Part shown: in pieces, positions 38,940 through 52,601 of the stretch
Position numbering within the stretch: the stretch's first letter is position 1
How the letters are laid out: each line of letters begins with the position of its first letter
DNA from: a virus
IMG/VR virus record: IMGVR_UViG_3300045131_001121
Span: 1 to 52,601 of that record
Reading direction: 5' to 3' (one strand)
DNA: 52,601 nucleotides
The notes under the pieces: model-generated
What the model saw: the letters and a program-made list of their open reading frames with translations, nothing else
The model's database searches: none
Told to the model about the DNA's origin: nothing
Made by a program: the position numbers and the translations under genes

Positions 38940-41900
38940 TTAACTTAAATTTTTAGCTATTGTAAACCCATACCAACTCGTTCCACCGTCAAATGTATAA
39001 AATACTAATACATCTTCACCAGATGATGTCAATACGGGCTGAATACCACCTGCCCAATTAACCGTTGCCGGCCATGTAATTACAAATGCCCCAGCGTTTA
39101 CAGTTAGTAATGTAAATCCAAATGCTTTACCAACAGGTACGTTGATAAATGTTACTGTAGCTGTTCCATTAAATTGTCTTCTAAAATTATTTGCAGTTGA
39201 ACAATCTATTGGAGTACTAGCACCAGTTCCTAAATTATTATAAATTTCTCTATACGCAGTTGCTTCTAAATATGTACTAGCATCCAATCCACCGGTCAAT
39301 GTAATATCACCTGTTTGGGTTGTATTACCAACTATTGTTAACGTAGAACCATCATATGTTAAATTACTTTCAATATTAGCTTGAACAGGAGAATCCTGAT
39401 ATGTAAGTAATCCATTATTTGTTGAACCATTCAATGCAAATCCATTTGTACCAGATGTTCCGGATGTTACACCAGTTGCCGATGTACCACCACTTCCAGA
39501 AGTTCCGGATGTACCACTTACACCAGATGTACCAGATGAAAAGCCCGGAGCGTTTGTACCGGATGTACCACTTGTTCCAGTTTGTCCAGATGTTCCAGAA
39601 GTTCCTGATGAGAATCCCGGTGCGTTTGTTCCAGAAGTTCCAGCACTTCCATCAGTACCACTTATTCCTGAAGTACCAGATGTGCCAGAACTAAATCCTG
39701 GTGCGTTAGTACCGGATGTACCACTTGTTCCACCAGAGCCACCACTACCTTCTGAACCATTAATTCCACTTGTTCCACTACTTCCAAACATTGTACCATT
39801 TACTCCAGATGTACCAGAAACTCCAGAAGTTCCTGAAGTTCCATTACTTGCAGAAGAACCAGATGTTCCATCACTTCCCGAAGTACCGGATGTACCACTA
39901 CTTCCAAAGAATGTTCCATTTACTCCAGATGAACCAGAAATTCCTGAAGTTCCTGAACTTCCACTAGTTCCTGATATACCAGATGTACCACTTGTACCAT
40001 CACTACCGGATGTACCAGAACTTCCGAAGAATGTACCATTTACTCCAGATGTACCAGAAATTCCTGATGTACCCGATGTACCAGATGTACCCGAAGTTCC
40101 TGAAGTTCCTGATGTACCAGAAGTTCCACTGCTGCCAAATAAAGTTCCATCTAATCCAGATGTACCAGAAATCCCTGAAGTACCCGATGTACCTGATGTA
40201 CCCGAAGTTCCACTAGTACCATCTGAACCAGATATACCTGATGTACCACTACTTCCAAAGAATGTTCCATCTAAACCAGATGTACCAGATATTCCTGAAG
40301 TTCCACTTGTACCAGATGTACCCGAAGTACCATCACTACCAGAAGTTCCCGAAGTTCCACTACTTCCAAATAAAGTTCCATCCAATCCAGATGTTCCGGA
40401 AATTCCTGAAGTTCCAGATGTTCCAGAAGTACCATCACTACCAGAAGTTCCTGATGTACCACTTTCACCACTCGTACCACTACTTCCAAAGAACGTACCA
40501 TTAACACCAGATGTACCACTTGTTCCATCAGTTCCTGATATTCCAGATGTACCAGATACACCACTCGTGCCATCTGAACCAGATGTGCCAGAAGTACCAC
40601 TGCTTCCAAAGAATGTTCCATTCAGTCCTGATGTACCAGATGTTCCATCCGTTCCGGATACACCAGATGTTCCTGAAGTTCCATTTATACCAGAAGTGCC
40701 TGATGTTCCGTCTATACCCGAAGTTCCACTACTTCCAAAGAAAGTTCCATTTACTCCGGATGTACCATCACTACCAGAGGTGCCACTTGTTCCCGAAGTT
40801 CCACTACTACCAGAAGTTCCGGATGAACCATCTATACCAGAAGTTCCACTACTTCCAAAGAAAGTTCCATTTACTCCGGATGTTCCCGAAGTTCCCGAAG
40901 TTCCAGAAGTTCCAGATGTTCCAGAAGTACCATCACTACCGGATGTTCCCGATGTACCCGAAGTTCCATCTATACCAGAAGTGCCTGATGTTCCAGAAGT
41001 TCCGTTAGTACCACTTGAACCAGACGTTCCCGATGTACCATCACTTCCCGAAGTTCCAGAAGTTCCGCTTGTACCATTAATTCCAGATGTTCCACTCGTG
41101 CCACTTGTACCTTCACTACCATTAGTACCACTCGTGCCCGATGTACCAGAAGTTCCATCACTACCGGAAGTTCCTGATGTACCATTTATACCAGAAGTTC
41201 CAGAAGTACCGGATGTACCATCAGTTCCAATTCCGCTTGTACCAGAAGTTCCTGATGTGCCGCTTGTGCCATCACTACCACTCGTACCGCTTGTACCAGA
41301 AGTTCCCGATGTTCCACTTGTACCCTCACTGCCATTGGTGCCAGATGTACCAGATGTTCCGGATGTACCATCAGAACCAGATGTTCCAGAAGTTGCTGAT
41401 GTTCCCGAAGTTCCAGAAGTTCCCGATGTACCGGATGTGCCTGAAGTTCCAGAAGTTCCTGAAGTACCCGAAGTACCATCTATTCCACTCGTTCCAGAAC
41501 TACCAGAAGTTCCGCTTGTTCCTGAAGTACCCGAAGTTCCAGAAGTTCCTGAAGAACCTTCACTTCCCGAAGTACCCGAAGTTCCAGATGTTCCAGAAGT
41601 ACCCGAAGTACCATCAGAACCAGTACTTCCGGATGTTCCTGAAGTTCCAGATGTTCCAGAAGTTCCTGATGTACCTGATGTTCCACTTATACCATCACTA
41701 CCAGAAGTTCCAGAAGTTCCTGATGTACCATCTATGCCAGATGTACCGGACGTTCCTGATGTACCAGATGTACCAGCTGTGCCAGAAGTTCCTGATGAAC
41801 CAGTTCCACCACTCGTACCGGATGTTCCCGAAGTTCCACTAGTTCCTGAAGACCCACCGGTACCCGTACTACCAGAAGTTCCACTACTTCCTGCAGTACC

Positions 41901-44900
41901 ACCACTACCCGCAGTACCAGAAGTTCCACTTGTTCCACTTGTTCCGGAAGTTCCTGAAGAACCACCACTACCAGAAGTTCCTGAAGAACCACCACTACCA
42001 GAAGTTCCAGATGTTCCTGAAGTTCCCCCACTACCAGATGTTCCGGATGTTCCGGATGTTCCAGAAGTTCCAGAAGTTCCAGAAGTTCCAGATGTACCAC
42101 CACTTCCCGATGTTCCGGATGTTCCGGATGTTCCGGATGTTCCGGATGTTCCAGAAGTTCCTCTTGTACCAGATGTTCCCGAAGTTCCCGAAGTTCCCGA
42201 AGTTCCCGAAGTTCCTGAAGTTCCTGATGTACCCGAAGTTCCCGAAGTTCCTTCACTACCGGTTGTACCAGAAGTACCACTTGTACCAGATGTTCCTGAT
42301 GTACCAGATGTTCCCGATGTACCAGATGTTCCGGAAGTTCCCGAAGTACCAGAAGTTCCATCTACACCACTTGTTCCCGAAGTTCCGGAAGTGCCTGAAG
42401 TACCCGATGTACCATCCACGCCACTGGTTCCGGAAGTTCCGGAAGTGCCTGATGTGCCTGATGTGCCCGAAGTTCCTTCAGAGCCATTTGTACCCGATTC
42501 ACCAGATGTACCGGATGAACCTTGTACACCTGCTATATTTCTTCTTTCTAATCTTTTATTTGCAGAATTCCAAACAACTACGTCTTCAGCTGAGCCCGAT
42601 ATTAAATTTCCTAAAAATACACTACCAGTAACACCCAAACTACCACTAATTGTAAGTGATGCATTAATTGTACTATTTGTATTAATTTGTAAGAATGATG
42701 CCGTATCAGTATTACCAGATGCTAATGCAAACATCGCATATGATGCGGTGAATGCTAACGATGCAGTGCCAACTAACATTGAAGAAGTTTGTGAACTAAG
42801 TAAATCACCAGTACCACCACCACTTCCACCGCCACCTAATATCCTTACCAATACACCATCTGAACCCGATGCTATTACATCAACACCAGAACCAGTAAAA
42901 TGAATTTTTCCTACTTGTGCTTTTACTAATGAACTAGTTTGGTATATAAATAATTCAGTACCACCACCTTGTCCTGCATTTAATGCGTATGAAGCTGTTA
43001 ATGCATAAGATGCACTCACTGCACTAAATACACGCATTGAAGAAGTTTGGTCATTTCTCACATAAGCATTTGCATTCGCCAAAGATGCAGATAACGATAC
43101 CAATGATGCTGAATCAAATCCAGTCACCGCATCTGCTAATAAAGCTTTTCTAGCAAATGATGCTGATAAAACCTCACCAAAAACTCTATCTCCACCAATT
43201 GTACCACTTATCAAAGAACCACCACTACCAATTACAACGTGTCCGGAAGTTAATCCAGCAAATTTAACTTGTATTGTATTATTATCAATTGATTTAATAG
43301 TACCAGCCATAATCTGGTCTTCCGAACCAGTAGCGTATACCTGAACTATTGGATAACGAATATCTAAATTATGTACAATTGTTAAATCACTTACATTATT
43401 AAATGATACAGTTTCAGTTAATGATGTTTCCGGTTGAGGTATGAAGTATCCTTGCGTTGGATTGAATCTTAAAATATCATATTCTGCACTAGCAGTAGCT
43501 CCAGCTCCTTGAAAATTATATGTACCTAAGAATGAACCGCTAAATAATTGAGATTTAATAACACCACTTGCCGTAATATTATTTACTAATATTTTATTCG
43601 ATACATCCAAATCACCTTGTATAGATGCTGATGTATTTACAACTAATCCTAAATTTGGAGAAATTTGTGCAGTTACAGAACCAGATTGTAATAGAGAAGT
43701 TTCAAATGCTAAATTAGCAATATTAATATTTCTTAATCCACTACCATCTCCAATAAATGAAGAACCGGATGCTGCTATTACATTTCCACCACTAACAAAT
43801 ATAGAACCACTCACAGTTAATGAACCAGAGAATATTCTTACAGATGTATTTATTTCTAATCCTTTGTTTGGTGATATTACACCTTCAACAGAACCAGATA
43901 TGATTCTATCTAACTTAAGGTCTTGTAATGCGTTTGCAGGAATGTTAAATAAACCACCACCATCGCCTATATAAAGTGCTGCTGTTATTGGTACGTTTAC
44001 ATCTAATTTATTTGGGTCTATAATTGCTCTACCAGAACCAGATTGAATTCTATCTAATTGTAAATCTTCTAATGCCGATGCTGGGATGTTGAATAAACCA
44101 CCACCATCTCCATCAAAACGAGATGCGGACATTGAACCACTAATATTAACCGAACCGGTAAATATAGCACCATAATATGAGCCAGAGTTAGAACCTACAC
44201 TAGAGAAATTTCCCTTTGTTGTTACAATAAATTGTATTCCACTTTGTACAGATGCAGTTGCCGAACCACTTGCTATCAATGGTGCTGCTGATGCCTGTAC
44301 ATTGGTTAATTGAGAACCATCTCCACTAAATGAAAATGCTCTAATACTACCACTCACATCGATTGAACCCGTAAATCTAGAACCAATAGCCGAACCAGTT
44401 GCTCCGGTTGTTACTACAAATGAATCACCACTTTGAACTGATGCAGTTGCAGAACCACTACCAATAAATGGAGCTGCCGCGGCTTGTACATTTGTTATAA
44501 AACTACCATCGCCTAATATAAATTGGGCTTTGATACTACCACTTATATCAACCGAGCCGGTAAATTGAGAACCAAATTGTACATCCTGTCCACTTCCGGT
44601 TGCTCCGGTTGTTACTACGAATCTATCTCCACTGGCTACCGATGCAGTTGCAGAACCACTTGCTATTAAAGGTGATGCTGCAGCTTGCACGTTTGTTATT
44701 TGTGAACCATCTCCTATGAATGCAAATGCTCTTACCGAACCACTCACGTCAATTGAACCAGTAAATTGAGAACCTATTTGAGAACCAGTAGACGTTGTTT
44801 GTACTCTAAATCCGAAATCTGGACTTACAGAAGCAGTTATCGAACCGGATTTAATTTCCGTACTAACAAGTGCATCTTCTGTTAACGCAGAACGAGGAAT

Positions 44901-47900
44901 ATTTCTTAGGAATGTACCCTCACCATAATATACTGAGGATGATGCTAAAAATAATCCACCACTTATTTCATTTATAAATAAACTTCCACTTATATCAACC
45001 GAGCCCGTTAAACGTGACCCGATTTGAGTATCATATATAAAATTTGGGTTACCATTTACTACGTTAATAGTACCAGCCATCGATGAGTGCAATTGGCAGT
45101 TATAATATAATGTATTTGGTGCACTACCAGAAACTAAGAATCTTATTTGGCCATTATCTTCACCATTATTAGTTACCCAAGAATAATATCCACTATTAGT
45201 ACCAATTGCACTTGCCGAATTAATCCAAAATGGATGACCGGTTGCATTTACATTAAAAACATATTCATAATTTCTATGCAATGTAAGTGTAGGATTTGAA
45301 CCACTTAGTAACCCGTTACTTATATTATAATTACCACTTCCATCATTAGTTACAGTGAATACGTTATCAAATGATAAAGAAGATGTAAATGGAGTTGTTA
45401 CTTTAAATCCAAAATCTGGACTAACCGAAGCAGTTACACTACCACTTTTAATTTCAGAAGATACCAATGCATCTTCGGTTAATGCTGCTCTAGGAATTTC
45501 TCTTAAGAAAGTTCCTAATGAATAAATAAATGAAGATGAATCTATTCTAATACTTCCACTAAAATCAGAACCACTTTCAAATGATGCTACTCTAAATCCA
45601 AAAGCGGGTGATACAGATGCAGTTACACTACCACTAGCAATTCTAACAGTATCACCAGATATTGCAGATTGTGGAATATCAAATAATCCTTTACCACTAC
45701 CACTAAACATTGATGCAGTAACATTACCAATTACTTTTGTTTCACCAATTAATTTTATTTCAGCTGGAACGTATAATGCATCTACTACGTTAATAGTACC
45801 CGCCATTGATGAGTGTAATTGGCAATTATAATATAGGGTATCGGGTGCACTACCAGAAACTAAAAACGTTATATCTCCAACATCATCACCATTATTCATT
45901 ACCCAACTACCATAGTTATTTTCTGTACCTGTACTATTTACAGTCTTAATCCAAAATGGATGTCCACTTGCATTTACACTAAATGTATAGTTTACATTTC
46001 TAACTAAAGTTAAAGTTGGATTTGAACCACTTACTAATCTATTACTAATATTATAAAGACCACTACCCTCATTTGTTACAATAAATGTAGTATCTATTTC
46101 ATAATTAGGTATTGGTCTTGCCGATGATGATACAATAAAACTACCACTAATTGTAGAGAATGTATTTACTGTAAGTCCAAAATCAGGAGAAATAGATGCG
46201 GTTACCGAACCACTTGCAATTCTATTAATTTTAAATGATAATGCAGATTCAGGAATATCAGATAATCCAGCACCACTACCACTAAAGAATGAACCAGTTT
46301 CAACTCTTATGTATCCACCACTTACAAATAAACTTCCGCTAAATTGAGAACCACTTGCTATTGATGTTACTTTAAATCCTTCATTGGGTGATACAGATGC
46401 GGTTACCGAACCTGATTTGATTTCAGTAGATATTAAAGCCTCTTCTGTCAATGCATTACGAGGAATGTTTCTTAAAAACGTACCTTCTGAATATATGAAA
46501 GATGATGAATCAATTCTAATACTTCCACTAAAATCAGAACCACTTTCGAATGATTCTACTCTAAAACCAAATACAGGAGATACGGATGCAGTTACACTAC
46601 CGCTTGATATTCTAAATACTTCCGATGATAATGCAGATTGTGGAATATCAAATAAACCTCTACCACTGCCACTAAATACAGATGCAGATATTGAACCAGA
46701 AAAATTAGATACGTCTGCAAATACTTGAAATCCTTTATTTGGGGAAATTGATGCAGTTACACTACCACTAAATATTTTTGAGGTATCTAAATTAGAAAGT
46801 GCTGATATTGGTATATTAAATAATTTATCACCACTTCCACTAAATGAACCAGAATATAATTCTATACTACCACTTACAAATATAGAACCAGTAAATTGTG
46901 AACCACTTTGTGACGATTCTACTCTAAATCCAAATTCAGGAGATACGGATGCAGTTACACTGCCAGATGCAATTTTATTTGGAGAAAATGAAAGGGCGGA
47001 TTCCGGAATATCAAATAAGTTAGCACCACTGCCAGAATAAACTGAACCTGATGTGATTGAGATATTTCCACTTACAAATAAATTTCCAACAAAAGTAGAA
47101 CCAGCCGTAACAGATGTTACTACAAACCCCTCAACAGGAGAAACCGATGCAGTTACGGATCCAGATACTATTTTTGTTGCTACTTGCGGAGATACTATTA
47201 TTCCCGTTAATCTACTACCATCTCCTTGAAACGAACCACTAATATCAGAACCACTTACTTCGTTAGTAAAAACTTGAAATACTCTAAGACTTCCACTTAT
47301 ATCAACACTACCAGTAAATTGAGACCCACTTAAAGGTGATTCTACTTTAAATCCAAATGTAGGTGATACCGATGCTGTTATACTACCACTTGCTATTCTA
47401 GATGGTGAAAATGATAATGCCGATTCTGGAATATCAAATAACCCAGCTCCACTACCAGTAAACATTGATGCAGTTATTGTTGATTTAAATATTGCCGGTT
47501 GGCTTACGTTTAAACTACCACTTACAATTACATCTCCAATAATTAGAACTTCTGGTCTCCTTTGTAAAAAGGCATCTACTACATTAATTACACCAGCCAT
47601 TGCGATGTGATATTGGCAATTGTAATATAGTATTGATGGTGCATCATATGGTACAACAAACTCTATTGTTCCAAGATCTTCACCATTGTTTGTTACTCCG
47701 GTGTCATATGTATTTCCAGTACCATTTGAGCTTATTGTTTTTATGTAAAATGGATGTCCAGATGCGTTTATATTAAATGTATAGGTTACTCCTCTTACTA
47801 ATGTTATTGTTGGGTTTTGGTTTATAGTATTACCATTAAAACGATAAGCCGCAGTATCATCATTTGTTACATTAAATACTTTATCCAAAGATTCCGATGG

Positions 47901-49442
47901 ATAATACGCAGCTGATGCGGATATTATCATACTTCCACTAAATGTAGAAAATGTGTTAACTATAAATCCCCTATCAGGCGAAATTGATGCCGTTGCCGAA
48001 CCACTACTAATTTTAGTAAGGTCCAAATCTCTAAGGGCTGATACTGGTATATCAAATAATCTATCTCCACTACCAGAATAAGATGAACCAGATGCAATTT
48101 CAATACCTCTAGCTCCACTTACAAAAAGTGAACCTGTGAATTGAGAACCACTATCAATTGAAACTACTCTAAATCCAAAATCAGGTGATACAGATGCGGT
48201 TACACTACCACTTGATATTACAGTACTCAGTAAAGCATCGGGAGTTAATGCAGAACGAGGAATATCAGATAATCCTTTACCGCTACCACTAAAAAATGAA
48301 CCGGTTGCAACTCTTATATTACCACCACTCACAAATAATGAGCCTGTAAATTGTGAACCACTTGCTAATGAGATTACTTTAAATCCTTCATTTGGACTAA
48401 CCGATGCAGTTACACTTCCAGTTGCTATCAATGTTGCTACTAAAGCATCAGGAGTTAATGCGGAACGAGGAATATCAAATAAACCTCTACCACTTCCACT
48501 AAACATAGATGCGGATACTCCAAACTGAAATGTTGAAAATGTATTTACAACAAATCCAGTATTTGGTGCGATTGATGCCGTTGCAGAACCACTAGCTATT
48601 CTAGTAGCTACTAGTGAATCAATATTAAGTGCCGATAATGGAATATTAAATAATCCCTCACCACTACCACTAAAGAATCCACTTCCAGATGGTATTACAA
48701 CATTTCCACTTACAAAAAGTGAACCAGTAAATTTAGAACCACTAGCTATTGATGTTACTACAAATCCAGTATTTGGTGCTACTGATGCTGTTACACTACC
48801 ACTTGCTAATCTAGTAGCTTGTGGTAAATTAAATAAATCTCTTGCATCTCCAAAAAATGAACCAGTAAATGAACCAGTAAATGAAGAACCGGTAATATTG
48901 TTACCAATTAATTCACTTTGTATTCTTACAGATCCTGTAAATTGTTGTATGTTTTGGTCTACATTACCAAATATATTTGAACCAGATGAAAATACTATTG
49001 ATGATGAAACTATATTTACAATAATTTGGTCAGCAAAAATAGATTCATCAACTATTAAATTACCTTGAATTCTAGTATTTGTATTAACAAACAAATCACC
49101 TTCTTTAAAAGATGCAGTTGCCGAACCACTAGCTATAAATGTTGCTGCTGGTAAATTAAATAAATCTCTACCGTCTCCAAAGTAAGAGCCGGTAAAAGAA
49201 CCGGTAAAAGAACCAGTAAATGTACCAGTCGCTCTATCTAAATCTAAACTTCTTACAAATCCTCTATTACCCTGGTCATCCGATACTAATATCGCCGGAG
49301 AACCAGAAAGTGAAGCAGAGAAATTTGGAACACCGAAATTCGGTTCAACTTGAGATAAATCAATGAACTGATATCTGTCTGCCGTTACATTTTTGGGTGA
49401 AATTACCCTTACCCTACCCGTTAATAGATTACTAATTGCCAT
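38940..49442 (-). CDS. Giant 3500-aa tail fibre with Ser-Gly repeats, cupredoxin-like domains and collagen-like region
   Basis: The N-terminal two thirds (to about 2300) are repeats of the type IASGSVTASVSPxxGFxV, FTGSLFVSG and LFDIPxSAL, in about twenty rounds. Three cupredoxin-like domains are inserted at about 514-625, 1113-1224 and 1354-1466. Residues about 2306-3335 are a collagen-like GTS region with GTFF interruptions. The C-terminus (about 3335-3500) is a compact beta domain without an S74 chaperone (FVITWPATVNWAGGIQPVLT). The start MAISNLLTGRVRVISPKNVT is supported by two late-type motifs at 20 and 40 nt. It should be a long fibre or whisker binding host surface or particles. It heads the operon that includes the BspA-like adhesin and the assembly chaperone. 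Size and repeats raise the risk of assembly error. Confidence 0.85.
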   Translation of the reverse strand: MAISNLLTGRVRVISPKNVTADRYQFIDLSQVEPNFGVPNFSASLSGSPAILVSDDQGNRGFVRSLDLDRATGTFTGSFTGSFTGSYFGDGRDLFNLPAATFIASGSATASFKEGDLFVNTNTRIQGNLIVDESIFADQIIVNIVSSSIVFSSGSNIFGNVDQNIQQFTGSVRIQSELIGNNITGSSFTGSFTGSFFGDARDLFNLPQATRLASGSVTASVAPNTGFVVTSIASGSKFTGSLFVSGNVVIPSGSGFFSGSGEGLFNIPLSALNIDSLVATRIASGSATASIAPNTGFVVNTFSTFQFGVSASMFSGSGRGLFDIPRSALTPDALVATLIATGSVTASVSPNEGFKVISLASGSQFTGSLFVSGGNIRVATGSFFSGSGKGLSDIPRSALTPDALLSTVISSGSVTASVSPDFGFRVVSIDSGSQFTGSLFVSGARGIEIASGSSYSGSGDRLFDIPVSALRDLDLTKISSGSATASISPDRGFIVNTFSTFSGSMIISASAAYYPSESLDKVFNVTNDDTAAYRFNGNTINQNPTITLVRGVTYTFNINASGHPFYIKTISSNGTGNTYDTGVTNNGEDLGTIEFVVPYDAPSILYYNCQYHIAMAGVINVVDAFLQRRPEVLIIGDVIVSGSLNVSQPAIFKSTITASMFTGSGAGLFDIPESALSFSPSRIASGSITASVSPTFGFKVESPLSGSQFTGSVDISGSLRVFQVFTNEVSGSDISGSFQGDGSRLTGIIVSPQVATKIVSGSVTASVSPVEGFVVTSVTAGSTFVGNLFVSGNISITSGSVYSGSGANLFDIPESALSFSPNKIASGSVTASVSPEFGFRVESSQSGSQFTGSIFVSGSIELYSGSFSGSGDKLFNIPISALSNLDTSKIFSGSVTASISPNKGFQVFADVSNFSGSISASVFSGSGRGLFDIPQSALSSEVFRISSGSVTASVSPVFGFRVESFESGSDFSGSIRIDSSSFIYSEGTFLRNIPRNALTEEALISTEIKSGSVTASVSPNEGFKVTSIASGSQFSGSLFVSGGYIRVETGSFFSGSGAGLSDIPESALSFKINRIASGSVTASISPDFGLTVNTFSTISGSFIVSSSARPIPNYEIDTTFIVTNEGSGLYNISNRLVSGSNPTLTLVRNVNYTFSVNASGHPFWIKTVNSTGTENNYGSWVMNNGDDVGDITFLVSGSAPDTLYYNCQLHSSMAGTINVVDALYVPAEIKLIGETKVIGNVTASMFSGSGKGLFDIPQSAISGDTVRIASGSVTASVSPAFGFRVASFESGSDFSGSIRIDSSSFIYSLGTFLREIPRAALTEDALVSSEIKSGSVTASVSPDFGFKVTTPFTSSLSFDNVFTVTNDGSGNYNISNGLLSGSNPTLTLHRNYEYVFNVNATGHPFWINSASAIGTNSGYYSWVTNNGEDNGQIRFLVSGSAPNTLYYNCQLHSSMAGTINVVNGNPNFIYDTQIGSRLTGSVDISGSLFINEISGGLFLASSSVYYGEGTFLRNIPRSALTEDALVSTEIKSGSITASVSPDFGFRVQTTSTGSQIGSQFTGSIDVSGSVRAFAFIGDGSQITNVQAAASPLIASGSATASVASGDRFVVTTGATGSGQDVQFGSQFTGSVDISGSIKAQFILGDGSFITNVQAAAAPFIGSGSATASVQSGDSFVVTTGATGSAIGSRFTGSIDVSGSIRAFSFSGDGSQLTNVQASAAPLIASGSATASVQSGIQFIVTTKGNFSSVGSNSGSYYGAIFTGSVNISGSMSASRFDGDGGGLFNIPASALEDLQLDRIQSGSGRAIIDPNKLDVNVPITAALYIGDGGGLFNIPANALQDLKLDRIISGSVEGVISPNKGLEINTSVRIFSGSLTVSGSIFVSGGNVIAASGSSFIGDGSGLRNINIANLAFETSLLQSGSVTAQISPNLGLVVNTSASIQGDLDVSNKILVNNITASGVIKSQLFSGSFLGTYNFQGAGATASAEYDILRFNPTQGYFIPQPETSLTETVSFNNVSDLTIVHNLDIRYPIVQVYATGSEDQIMAGTIKSIDNNTIQVKFAGLTSGHVVIGSGGSLISGTIGGDRVFGEVLSASFARKALLADAVTGFDSASLVSLSASLANANAYVRNDQTSSMRVFSAVSASYALTASYALNAGQGGGTELFIYQTSSLVKAQVGKIHFTGSGVDVIASGSDGVLVRILGGGGSGGGTGDLLSSQTSSMLVGTASLAFTASYAMFALASGNTDTASFLQINTNSTINASLTISGSLGVTGSVFLGNLISGSAEDVVVWNSANKRLERRNIAGVQGSSGTSGESGTNGSEGTSGTSGTSGTSGTSGTSGVDGTSGTSGTSGTSGTSGVDGTSGTSGTSGTSGTSGTSGTSGTSGTSGTSGTTGSEGTSGTSGTSGTSGTSGTSGTSGTSGTSGTRGTSGTSGTSGTSGTSGTSGSGGTSGTSGTSGTSGTSGTSGTSGSGGTSGTSGTSGSGGSSGTSGSGGSSGTSGTSGTSGTSGTAGSGGTAGSSGTSGSTGTGGSSGTSGTSGTSGTSGGTGSSGTSGTAGTSGTSGTSGTSGIDGTSGTSGTSGSDGISGTSGTSGTSGTSGTSGTSGSTGSDGTSGTSGTSGTSGTSGSEGSSGTSGTSGTSGTSGTSGSSGTSGIDGTSGTSGTSGTSGTSGTSGTSGTSGTSATSGTSGSDGTSGTSGTSGTNGSEGTSGTSGTSGTSGTSGSDGTSGTSGTSGTSGIGTDGTSGTSGTSGINGTSGTSGSDGTSGTSGTSGTNGSEGTSGTSGTSGINGTSGTSGTSGSDGTSGTSGSSGTNGTSGTSGTSGIDGTSGTSGTSGSDGTSGTSGTSGTSGTSGTSGVNGTFFGSSGTSGIDGSSGTSGSSGTSGTSGTSGSDGTSGVNGTFFGSSGTSGIDGTSGTSGINGTSGTSGVSGTDGTSGTSGLNGTFFGSSGTSGTSGSDGTSGVSGTSGISGTDGTSGTSGVNGTFFGSSGTSGESGTSGTSGSDGTSGTSGTSGISGTSGLDGTLFGSSGTSGTSGSDGTSGTSGTSGTSGISGTSGLDGTFFGSSGTSGISGSDGTSGTSGTSGTSGTSGISGTSGLDGTLFGSSGTSGTSGTSGTSGTSGTSGTSGISGTSGVNGTFFGSSGTSGSDGTSGTSGISGTSGSSGTSGISGSSGVNGTFFGSSGTSGTSGSDGTSGSSASNGTSGTSGVSGTSGVNGTMFGSSGTSGINGSEGSGGSGGTSGTSGTNAPGFSSGTSGTSGISGTDGSAGTSGTNAPGFSSGTSGTSGQTGTSGTSGTNAPGFSSGTSGVSGTSGTSGSGGTSATGVTSGTSGTNGFALNGSTNNGLLTYQDSPVQANIESNLTYDGSTLTIVGNTTQTGDITLTGGLDASTYLEATAYREIYNNLGTGASTPIDCSTANNFRRQFNGTATVTFINVPVGKAFGFTLLTVNAGAFVITWPATVNWAGGIQPVLTSSGEDVLVFYTFDGGTSWYGFTIAKNLS
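39440..42527 (-). repeat. Collagen-like Gly-Thr-Ser region with regular GTFF interruptions
   Basis: About 1030 residues of Gly-X-Y triplets, mostly GTS. Between 39781 and about 40860 ten copies of GTFFGSS-type breaks (GTFF, GTLF, GTMF) recur at steps of 120, 120, 111, 120, 111, 120, 120, 129 and 120 nt. A second break, GTNAPGFSSG, occurs three times near 39550-39715. Codons vary between copies. Confidence 0.88.
45047..45383 (-). other. Cupredoxin-like domain 3 of the 3500-aa fibre
   Basis: This copy has TLHRNYEYVFNVNATGHPFW in the first half and LYYNCQLHSSMAGTINVV at the end. The His in GHPF and the C-x2-H-x2-M string are in cupredoxin-ligand positions. Confidence 0.7.
45773..46105 (-). other. 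Cupredoxin-like domain 2 of the 3500-aa fibre
   Basis: This copy has TLVRNVNYTFSVNASGHPFW and then LYYNCQLHSSMAGTINVVDA. It keeps the same candidate His, Cys, His and Met ligands as the other two copies. Confidence 0.7.
47568..47903 (-). other. Cupredoxin-like domain 1 of the 3500-aa fibre
   Basis: This copy has TLVRGVTYTFNINASGHPFY and then LYYNCQYHIAMAGVINVVDA. It is more diverged from copies 2 and 3 but retains all four candidate ligands. Confidence 0.7.
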
Positions 49443-50453: not shown

Positions 50454-52601
50454 TTATATTTGTAGTGCTAATGAGAACGGAGTTACTAATGAGAATAGAG
50501 ATTTACTAAATGTTCTACCCACCAAAGTACCAGTTGCCTGATTAATACTTAAACCCGTACCAATTCTAAAGTCACCATCCTGATTACCAGATGTGAAGAA
50601 GATTCTACCTCCACCCAATTCAGTAATTTCAAATGCCGGGTCTGCTACACCACTACCTCCCTGATTTGGAGGAAGTGCTTTAAATGTCACACCACTACCA
50701 TTATAAGAGTAGTCAATACCAGTTGCCACAATTAGAGAACCAAATACTTCTAATGGTGCTCCAGCTGCTATAAACTCTGCTCTAGTTCTTAGATAACGAT
50801 TTGTTTCCAATGTTTCTAATAACTGGTCTCTAGTCACAACAACCGCACTTCCGTACTGACCATCGTAATATGAAGATGCTGCTTCAATACCCCTTTCATT
50901 TCCACCATATAATAAATCAGTCACGCATGCATCTACAATAAATCCAGTATCACGTGAACAACTTGCTTCATTATATATTAAATATGGAAAAGCTCCATTT
51001 GTGTATCCAATTGCTCTTTGTTTTAATTCGTCTTTACCGCCTTTTAATCTTTCAGCTGCTTGTCTTCTCTTAGTAGAAGGTGCTAAATAAGTTAATAAAG
51101 TATTTGCTACTATTTTTTCAGATATTCCTCTTGCGAAGTTTATACCATCTATCGTTTGTTTCTTTTGTCCATTATTATCACTATAACTATCCACAATTGC
51201 TACTGATGGGAATTTATAGTAGTATGAACCTGCTTCAATACTTCTTTCATTACCACCATAAACCAAATCAGTTCTAATTGCATCTATGATAAATCCTAAA
51301 TCTCTACTACAACTTGCTTCATTATATTTCAAATTACTCCAAGATGAAGATAAGAATGCTATGGTTTCTTTTTGTATTAATTGTTTGTTATCTGTCAATA
51401 ATTTTGCTGTTGTTATTAGAGATGCCGATGGTTCTAAATAAGTTGGATTGATTACTACTTTTTTAGATAACTTTCCAGCATATCTGATACCAGTCAGAGT
51501 TGGGTCTAATTGATTTAGAGTTGATGGTACACCTTTATTGATTGCGTTAGAAGGATATAAGTAATAATACTGTCCAGCTATCACACTTCTTTCTTGTCCA
51601 CCATATAATACATCCGTTGCTGCTGCATCTATTAGGTAACCAACATCTCTCTTACAAGTTGTTTCGTTATAATATACACCACTCCAAGAAGAAGATACAT
51701 AAGCGATAGTTTCAGCTGCCACAAATGCTTTATTCTTTCTTAATAAATCAAACGATGCTGATGCCTCTACTGATGCGGTTACGAATAGTATGTTTTGTGC
51801 AATCTTTTGTGATATTCTACCTGCGTAGTTTATACCATCAATTGTTTGTCCTAATTGCCCAACACCATCACCATCACCTTCAACGATTGCTAAAGATGGA
51901 TATTCGTAATAGAATTTACCATTCAATACAGTTCTCTCATTACCACCATATAATAAATCGGTAGTAACACCATCTAATATATAACCAGTATCTCTCTTAC
52001 ACTTATCTTTATCATACTCAAATGTACTCCAACTAGCAGTTAAGTAAGCCAGGGTTTCATTTTGTATAAACTCTCTATTCTTTCTTAATAAACTAACCGA
52101 TGCCGATACTATTTGAGATGCTGTCACAAATGTTAATGATGCCGCAACATTTTTAGAAAGTTGTCCTGCGTAATTAACACCTGTCAATGTTGGTTGTAAT
52201 TGTGCACCTTGCGCTTGTGATGGATATAAGTAATAGAACACTCCAGCATTTGTACTTCTTTCGTTTCCACCATATAATAAATCCGTAGAAACTGCATCTA
52301 TAATATGACCAACATCTCTTTTACAAGTTGATTCGATATAAGATGCCGTACTCCAAGAAGAAGATAAGTAAGCAATAGTTTCATTTTGTATAAACTCTCT
52401 ATTCTTTCGTATCAATGCGTATGATGCTGATACAATTGCTGATGCAGTTACATAAGTTACATTTTGAATTACTTTTTGTGCTAACTTACTTGCGTAGTTT
52501 ATTCCATCAAGCGTTTGGTTCAATTGTGCTCCTTGCGCCTGTGATGGATATTGATAATAGAATATACCATTAAATAATGATGCTGAATTTGAGTTAAATA
52601 C
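50454..52601 (-). CDS. Repeat-rich virion structural protein, 5' part outside the window
   Basis: The frame is open to the window edge (26 more codons beyond an internal TTG at 52523), so the true start is upstream. Five units of about 110-117 aa repeat the order RKNREFIQNETIAYLSSSWS, then Cys-(K/S)-RD-x-G-x-(I/L)-(I/V/L)-DA, then DLLYGGNERS, then YYxYPS, and then an (I/V)-x-YAGxLSxK-type segment. The Cys-containing stretches start near 50945, 51296, 51640, 51981 and 52309. The last part (about 50454-50870) is a different C-terminal domain (TGIDYSYNGSGVTFKALPPN). Similar CxRD...YGGN repeats occur in structural proteins of aquatic phages. It is probably a fibre or baseplate-associated protein. 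The conserved Cys per unit is notable for an extracellular protein. Confidence 0.78.
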   Translation of the reverse strand, partial: VFNSNSASLFNGIFYYQYPSQAQGAQLNQTLDGINYASKLAQKVIQNVTYVTASAIVSASYALIRKNREFIQNETIAYLSSSWSTASYIESTCKRDVGHIIDAVSTDLLYGGNERSTNAGVFYYLYPSQAQGAQLQPTLTGVNYAGQLSKNVAASLTFVTASQIVSASVSLLRKNREFIQNETLAYLTASWSTFEYDKDKCKRDTGYILDGVTTDLLYGGNERTVLNGKFYYEYPSLAIVEGDGDGVGQLGQTIDGINYAGRISQKIAQNILFVTASVEASASFDLLRKNKAFVAAETIAYVSSSWSGVYYNETTCKRDVGYLIDAAATDVLYGGQERSVIAGQYYYLYPSNAINKGVPSTLNQLDPTLTGIRYAGKLSKKVVINPTYLEPSASLITTAKLLTDNKQLIQKETIAFLSSSWSNLKYNEASCSRDLGFIIDAIRTDLVYGGNERSIEAGSYYYKFPSVAIVDSYSDNNGQKKQTIDGINFARGISEKIVANTLLTYLAPSTKRRQAAERLKGGKDELKQRAIGYTNGAFPYLIYNEASCSRDTGFIVDACVTDLLYGGNERGIEAASSYYDGQYGSAVVVTRDQLLETLETNRYLRTRAEFIAAGAPLEVFGSLIVATGIDYSYNGSGVTFKALPPNQGGSGVADPAFEITELGGGRIFFTSGNQDGDFRIGTGLSINQATGTLVGRTFSKSLFSLVTPFSLALQI

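Follow-up and report, generated by a model that had tools for sequence, protein, structure and literature searches.

Cupredoxin-like domains with a conserved candidate metal site in a viral tail fibre

Why would a viral tail fibre contain three domains that resemble small copper proteins, and could these domains hold a metal? The question is raised by IMG/VR virus record IMGVR_UViG_3300045131_001121, whose 52,601 nucleotides, analysed over their full length, are here called the window. This 52.6-kb virus carries T4-like replication genes, encoding a UvsX-like protein, a DnaB-like helicase and a single-strand binding protein, as well as a tail module with sheath, baseplate hub and fibres. Microcystis phage Mel-JY01 is the nearest isolate both by sheath (46% identity) and by UvsX (55% identity), so that a freshwater cyanobacterium is a plausible host. 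No match to the domain described below was found in Mel-JY01. All three domains belong to one tail-fibre gene of 3,500 aa (38940-49442, minus strand), a single uninterrupted ORF in a virion context with matches to phrog_677 and phrog_9158. On the opposite strand (39682-42903, plus), the fibre's GTSGTSG repeats give rise to a 1,073-aa antisense shadow ORF ('VPEVPDVP') that is not likely a gene. Elsewhere in the window, 50454-52601 (minus strand) encodes about five repeats of the form 'ETxAYLSSSWS...CxRDxGxIIDAxxTDLLYGGNERS', with one conserved Cys each, that match the cyanophage virion proteins phrog_4527 and phrog_5342.

The three copies are in frame within the fibre ORF, measure 106-108 aa and lie inside 45047-47903, as the preliminary description had proposed. 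Copy 1 spans residues 519-624 (47571-47888); copy 2, on which the fold was predicted, residues 1116-1222 (45777-46097); and copy 3, residues 1357-1464 (45051-45374), all on the minus strand. Each contains a GHPF segment and a YYNC-x2-H-x2-M-AG motif, which together provide a quartet of candidate ligands. On the same strand, these are His563 (47754-47756), Cys609 (47616-47618), His612 (47607-47609) and Met615 (47598-47600) in copy 1; His1161 (45960-45962), Cys1207 (45822-45824), His1210 (45813-45815) and Met1213 (45804-45806) in copy 2; and His1403 (45234-45236), Cys1449 (45096-45098), His1452 (45087-45089) and Met1455 (45078-45080) in copy 3. The GHPF His precedes the Cys by 46 residues in every copy, and not by the 60-70 residues first reported. 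The whole fibre has only 4 Cys and 10 His, and the candidate ligands account for three of the former and six of the latter. The C..H..M pattern occurs exactly three times in the fibre, where its composition predicts 5e-5 occurrences by chance, and is absent from the other plausible genes in six frames.

The order of type-1 copper ligands is found in these domains both in sequence and in strand positions, with the first His upstream and Cys, His and Met/Gln on one loop. C-x2-H-x2-M is the spacing of amicyanin, and amicyanin aligned with the domain profile likewise reads C-x2-H-x2-M. The spacing, which the preliminary description had called close to plastocyanin-type copper sites but shorter, is thus no unusual shortening. 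In the fibre domain, a Pro directly follows the first His. Classical sites have Asn (plastocyanin, azurin) or Ser (rusticyanin) at this place, and the backbone NH of that residue bonds the Cys sulphur. Because of this Pro, the candidate site may depart from the standard blue copper type and its properties may differ.

Further information about the domain was obtained by predicting its structure. AlphaFold2, run on copy 2 with 84 relatives, returned a cupredoxin fold of nine strands (pLDDT 97.0, pTM 0.89), in agreement with the Greek-key beta-sandwich of about eight strands that characterises solved cupredoxins. In the numbering of copy 2, H46 lies between strands 36-42 and 48-51, C92 ends strand 87-92, and H95 and M98 sit in the loop preceding strand 99-105, so that in the model the candidate ligands are laid out along the strands as in cupredoxins. 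VIA-align placed the extra type-1 copper domain of Hyphomicrobium nitrite reductase first (2dv6; Z 11.3, rmsd 2.1, 92 aligned) and rusticyanin second (2cal; Z 10.4), while all 50 matches listed by Foldseek for the predicted model against PDB were cupredoxin-fold proteins (best E 7.5e-5). A sequence profile built from 15 phage copies also reached nitrite reductase, plastocyanin, amicyanin, auracyanin, azurin and rusticyanin in PDB; the best E was 5.6e-5, nearly all 59 rows were blue copper proteins, and no phage chain was among the matches. A profile of 85 sequences showed weaker similarity to cupredoxins than the 15-copy profile, and a PDB search with a single domain sequence gave chance matches only. 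In a monomer prediction of a 431-aa stretch containing copies 2 and 3, copy 2 scored about 87-96, copy 3 was moderate and the shaft was mostly below 50. With structure prediction, fold search and sequence profile in agreement, the domain almost certainly adopts the cupredoxin fold that had been suggested for it. Two further resemblances were noted. In BFVD, the predicted domain matched A0A481Z6J5, A0A481YVH3 and A0A481Z7Q7 (E 5e-8 to 2e-6), short giant-virus proteins labelled 'beta-sandwich proteins' that come from Pithovirus and Marseillevirus metagenome genomes. Eight of the 15 phage copies were weakly similar to Pfam PF25489 (best 2.4e-4), a plant At5g54830-like domain that is perhaps an unrecognised cupredoxin-like domain.

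The fibre domain shares with the small blue copper proteins (plastocyanin, amicyanin, pseudoazurin; PF00127) the predicted fold, the quartet and the placing of the last three ligands before the last strand; with amicyanin it also shares the C-x2-H-x2-M loop, and its sequence profile matches blue copper proteins. However, it stays below the Pfam and NCBIfam cut-offs, has the Pro after the first His, and is part of a virion protein, whereas the small blue copper proteins are free electron carriers. The window copies reached no Pfam cut-off and did not match PF00127; their relatives match it weakly, the P-SSM2 fibre scoring 19.8 bits against a cut-off of 21.2. For the amicyanin family TIGR02657 of NCBIfam, the window copy was unmatched and one bacterial relative scored 12.8 bits against a cut-off of 110.2. 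Rusticyanin and the extra domain of nitrite reductase are the best structural matches, and rusticyanin has a GHSF segment resembling GHPF; yet identity to both is about 20% or less, and rusticyanin is a longer protein with a longer ligand loop.

Is the quartet conserved beyond what general similarity would leave? Identity to copy 1 is 56% for copy 2 and 52% for copy 3, and all three share the same residue in 49 of about 107 columns. The ligands are indeed kept in every window copy, as first noted, but the remark that the rest varies was overstated, and copies so similar throughout are weak evidence of conservation. They do not tell whether the ligands are conserved as such or as part of the overall resemblance, and for this reason only diverse homologues make the claim strong. 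The 15 diverse phage copies, which are 31-55% identical to copy 2, agree without exception in just seven columns, H46, P47, Y90, C92, H95, M98 and G100, and the quartet makes up four of them. The first search for relatives used a pattern that included the ligand Cys (LYYNCQ) and so biased the conservation count; it was repeated with ligand-free patterns, and HCHM was present in 65 of 66 distinct copies. The sole exception (L391) reads YNNM, with both His and the Cys replaced and the rest of the domain intact.

A census of ligand states was taken over 193 distinct copies, which formed 77 clusters when kept below 75% identity. The state was HCHM in 67 clusters and HCHQ in two; site-less copies read HDLL, QSQM, HSDM, HSNM and FNQM, two more being poorly aligned. 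Where both the Cys and the second His could be read, the two occur jointly in 185 copies and are jointly absent from six, and no copy keeps just one of them (Fisher p 1.6e-11, shared descent ignored). Such coupled retention and loss suggests that selection acts on a site. When the ligand columns were left out of the tree, most copies that have lost the site were nearest to intact ones and did not group together, which makes several separate losses likely as judged from these sequences. Given this minority, the quartet is dispensable in some copies. As the ligands go together, the pattern fits a metal site under relaxed selection. The claim of ligand conservation among homologues hence stands for most of them, although a minority lose the ligands while the fold stays. 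Among variants, phage S-SKS1 (L091) has a C-x4-H-x2-M loop, and Gln replaces Met in three viral copies (L107, L117, L141) and in bacterial L248. Stellacyanin-type sites likewise have Gln in place of the axial Met.

The domain is widespread in phages. By tblastn with copy 2, it was detected in 205 phage records at E<=1e-5 and in 341 at 1e-2, nearly all of them Synechococcus or Prochlorococcus phages. Many of the matches are C-terminal domains of a gp9-like baseplate wedge/tail fibre connector (phrog_677), whose profile the three window copies match at positions 307-410 of 412 (E 1.6e-26, 9.4e-20 and 2.1e-20). This cyanophage connector is a virion protein with a homologous domain and the quartet kept, but it carries a single C-terminal copy in about 410 aa and not three inside a 3,500-aa fibre. 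Fibre-like genes with the domain occur in P-SSM2, Bellamy and S-SCSM1, and the domain is also present in the podoviruses P-GSP1 and P-SCSP2 and in one actinobacterial phage. Most of the proteins that bear it are annotated as hypothetical, tail fibre or baseplate connector, and the subfamily has the signature [GN]HP[FL] ... YYxCxxHxx[MQ]xG. In Syn19 and syn9, the gene after gp9 (L083 frame 3282, L095 frame 1746) contains a look-alike, GHQMQF/GHPMQF ... IYYYC/IYYFC-x2-H-x2-M, whose score is not significant and which is perhaps a further diverged copy.

Bacteria carry the domain as well: a scan of bacterial and archaeal genomes yielded 33 loci with it. It is found at the C-terminus of CHRD lipoprotein-like proteins in Flavobacteriaceae, in a 132-aa frame with a signal-like N-terminus in Methylotenera, in Acidobacteria, and in PS1/OCS116 alphaproteobacteria, where the proteins have two domains. 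The relatives from Flavobacteriaceae, Methylotenera and PS1/OCS116 share the domain and the quartet at 47-71% identity to the phage query alignment, but they are cellular proteins and not fibres, several with signal or lipoprotein-like N-termini. By inspection, HCHM is present in all but two of 41 bacterial domains, the exceptions being L248, with Gln for Met, and L276, without the Cys. These relatives back a conserved site without proving copper, since they are uncharacterised and the scan patterns included the ligand Cys. Together with the all-or-none loss in phages, they lend indirect support to the earlier suggestion of selection for metal binding, and we regard a conserved metal site as highly probable.

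Some domain-bearing cyanophages also carry petE, the plastocyanin gene. It is unlikely to be the direct source of the fibre domain, as its loop differs (such as CGPHKGAGM), the His-Cys distance is shorter in cyanophage plastocyanins (37 in L438) and close relatives of the domain occur in bacteria. A MAFFT alignment with plastocyanin misplaced the first His and carries no weight here.

The position of the copies bears on what they might do. They occupy residues 519-1464 of 3,500, in the N-terminal half of the fibre, between shaft repeats, and the long collagen-like GTSGTSG region comes after them. Nothing therefore places them at the host-contact tip, and in cyanophage gp9 the domain is at the C-terminus of a baseplate connector; the host-contact surface proposed in the preliminary description is thus not supported. 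The insertion points are comparable within the shaft repeat, after ..TASxSPDxG[FL]xV. Among 32 aligned orthologous fibres, the quartet of copy 2 is kept in all 32 (loci partly fetched with the Cys-containing pattern), and copy 3 is found only in the window and in L001, L002 and L054, most of the others having a shaft segment at the equivalent place. From these comparisons, the domain looks like a module that is gained and lost.

What the quartet is for can be explained in several ways. A structural or adhesive module of copper-protein ancestry might keep it without any metal, for packing or by recent descent. Ephrins are cupredoxin-fold proteins that have lost copper. Copies without the quartet retain everything else in the domain, the fold thus being independent of it, and the window copies are similar throughout. 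However, a quartet found among only seven invariant columns at 31-55% identity is not what such a module predicts, and packing residues would drift one by one, whereas the presence or absence of the Cys goes with that of the second His. We consider a metal-free module unlikely, if worth bearing in mind. Alternatively, the Cys could serve another chemistry, by forming an interchain disulphide or a metal cluster in the fibre trimer, or the site could bind zinc or iron. Fibres are usually trimers, and each window domain has one Cys. Yet a disulphide needs neither the H-x2-M nor a distant His kept or lost with the Cys, the spacing and the fold are those of copper sites, and the fibre has no HxH pair; this option seems to us quite improbable.

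Other explanations give copper an active part in infection. According to the preliminary description, the sites could act as a redox or copper-sensing trigger, copper reduction or binding reshaping the fibre and so starting adsorption. Cupredoxin sites are redox-active in general, but oxidation or reduction leaves the shape of a cupredoxin almost unaltered. Orthologous fibres differ in copy number and some copies have lost the site, which argues mildly against a precise trigger; it is the least supported of the explanations, and we give it hardly any credence. The copper of the fibre could instead be a bait that docks the phage on a copper-uptake or copper-handling protein of the host, as in the iron 'Trojan horse'. 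For marine phages, fibres that bind iron through HxH have been discussed along with the Trojan Horse hypothesis (PMC11705849), and the domain is found in fibre and baseplate proteins. The HxH fibres (T4 gp37, R22Y gp12) likewise have a metal site in a tail fibre, although theirs are built from His pairs of three chains and here there is one candidate site per domain; none of the ten His of the 3,500-aa fibre are spaced two apart, so it has no HxH pair. Copies in the N-terminal half are not likely at the tip, the same domain is present in gp9 connectors and its distribution spans different hosts, all of which makes such a bait very doubtful.

We thus lean towards three self-contained cupredoxin domains in the fibre shaft, each with one type-1-like copper site, that serve as structural or adhesive decoration. 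The His, Cys, His and Met of each domain would form one mononuclear metal site, and copper is probably the metal. The fibre, synthesised in the cytoplasm of the host, would take up metal there or after release. Loaded domains would be rigid, metal-stabilised decorations of the shaft, and might aid fibre stability or contacts with the baseplate, neighbouring fibres or the host envelope. Such a structural or adhesive role is our leading guess, and only a guess because it is drawn from position; the inserted module itself we infer to be metal-binding, most likely of the type-1-like copper kind. In the literature searched, whose coverage is incomplete for subscription papers, no paper linking cupredoxins to phage virions was found.

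It is tempting to extend this proposal to many T4-like aquatic phages and some others, whose fibres and baseplate connectors would then carry type-1-like copper, making the virions copper-loaded, redox-capable particles that use copper in host recognition or particle survival, but we think this unlikely. If the sites do hold copper, phages would join the copper-ligand pool of natural waters, and ideas of metal-based adsorption, so far built on iron, would gain a second metal. Cyanophages are abundant aquatic viruses, and the domain is present in more than two hundred of the phage records searched. The conserved quartet in so widespread a virion domain suggests that their particles may carry copper.
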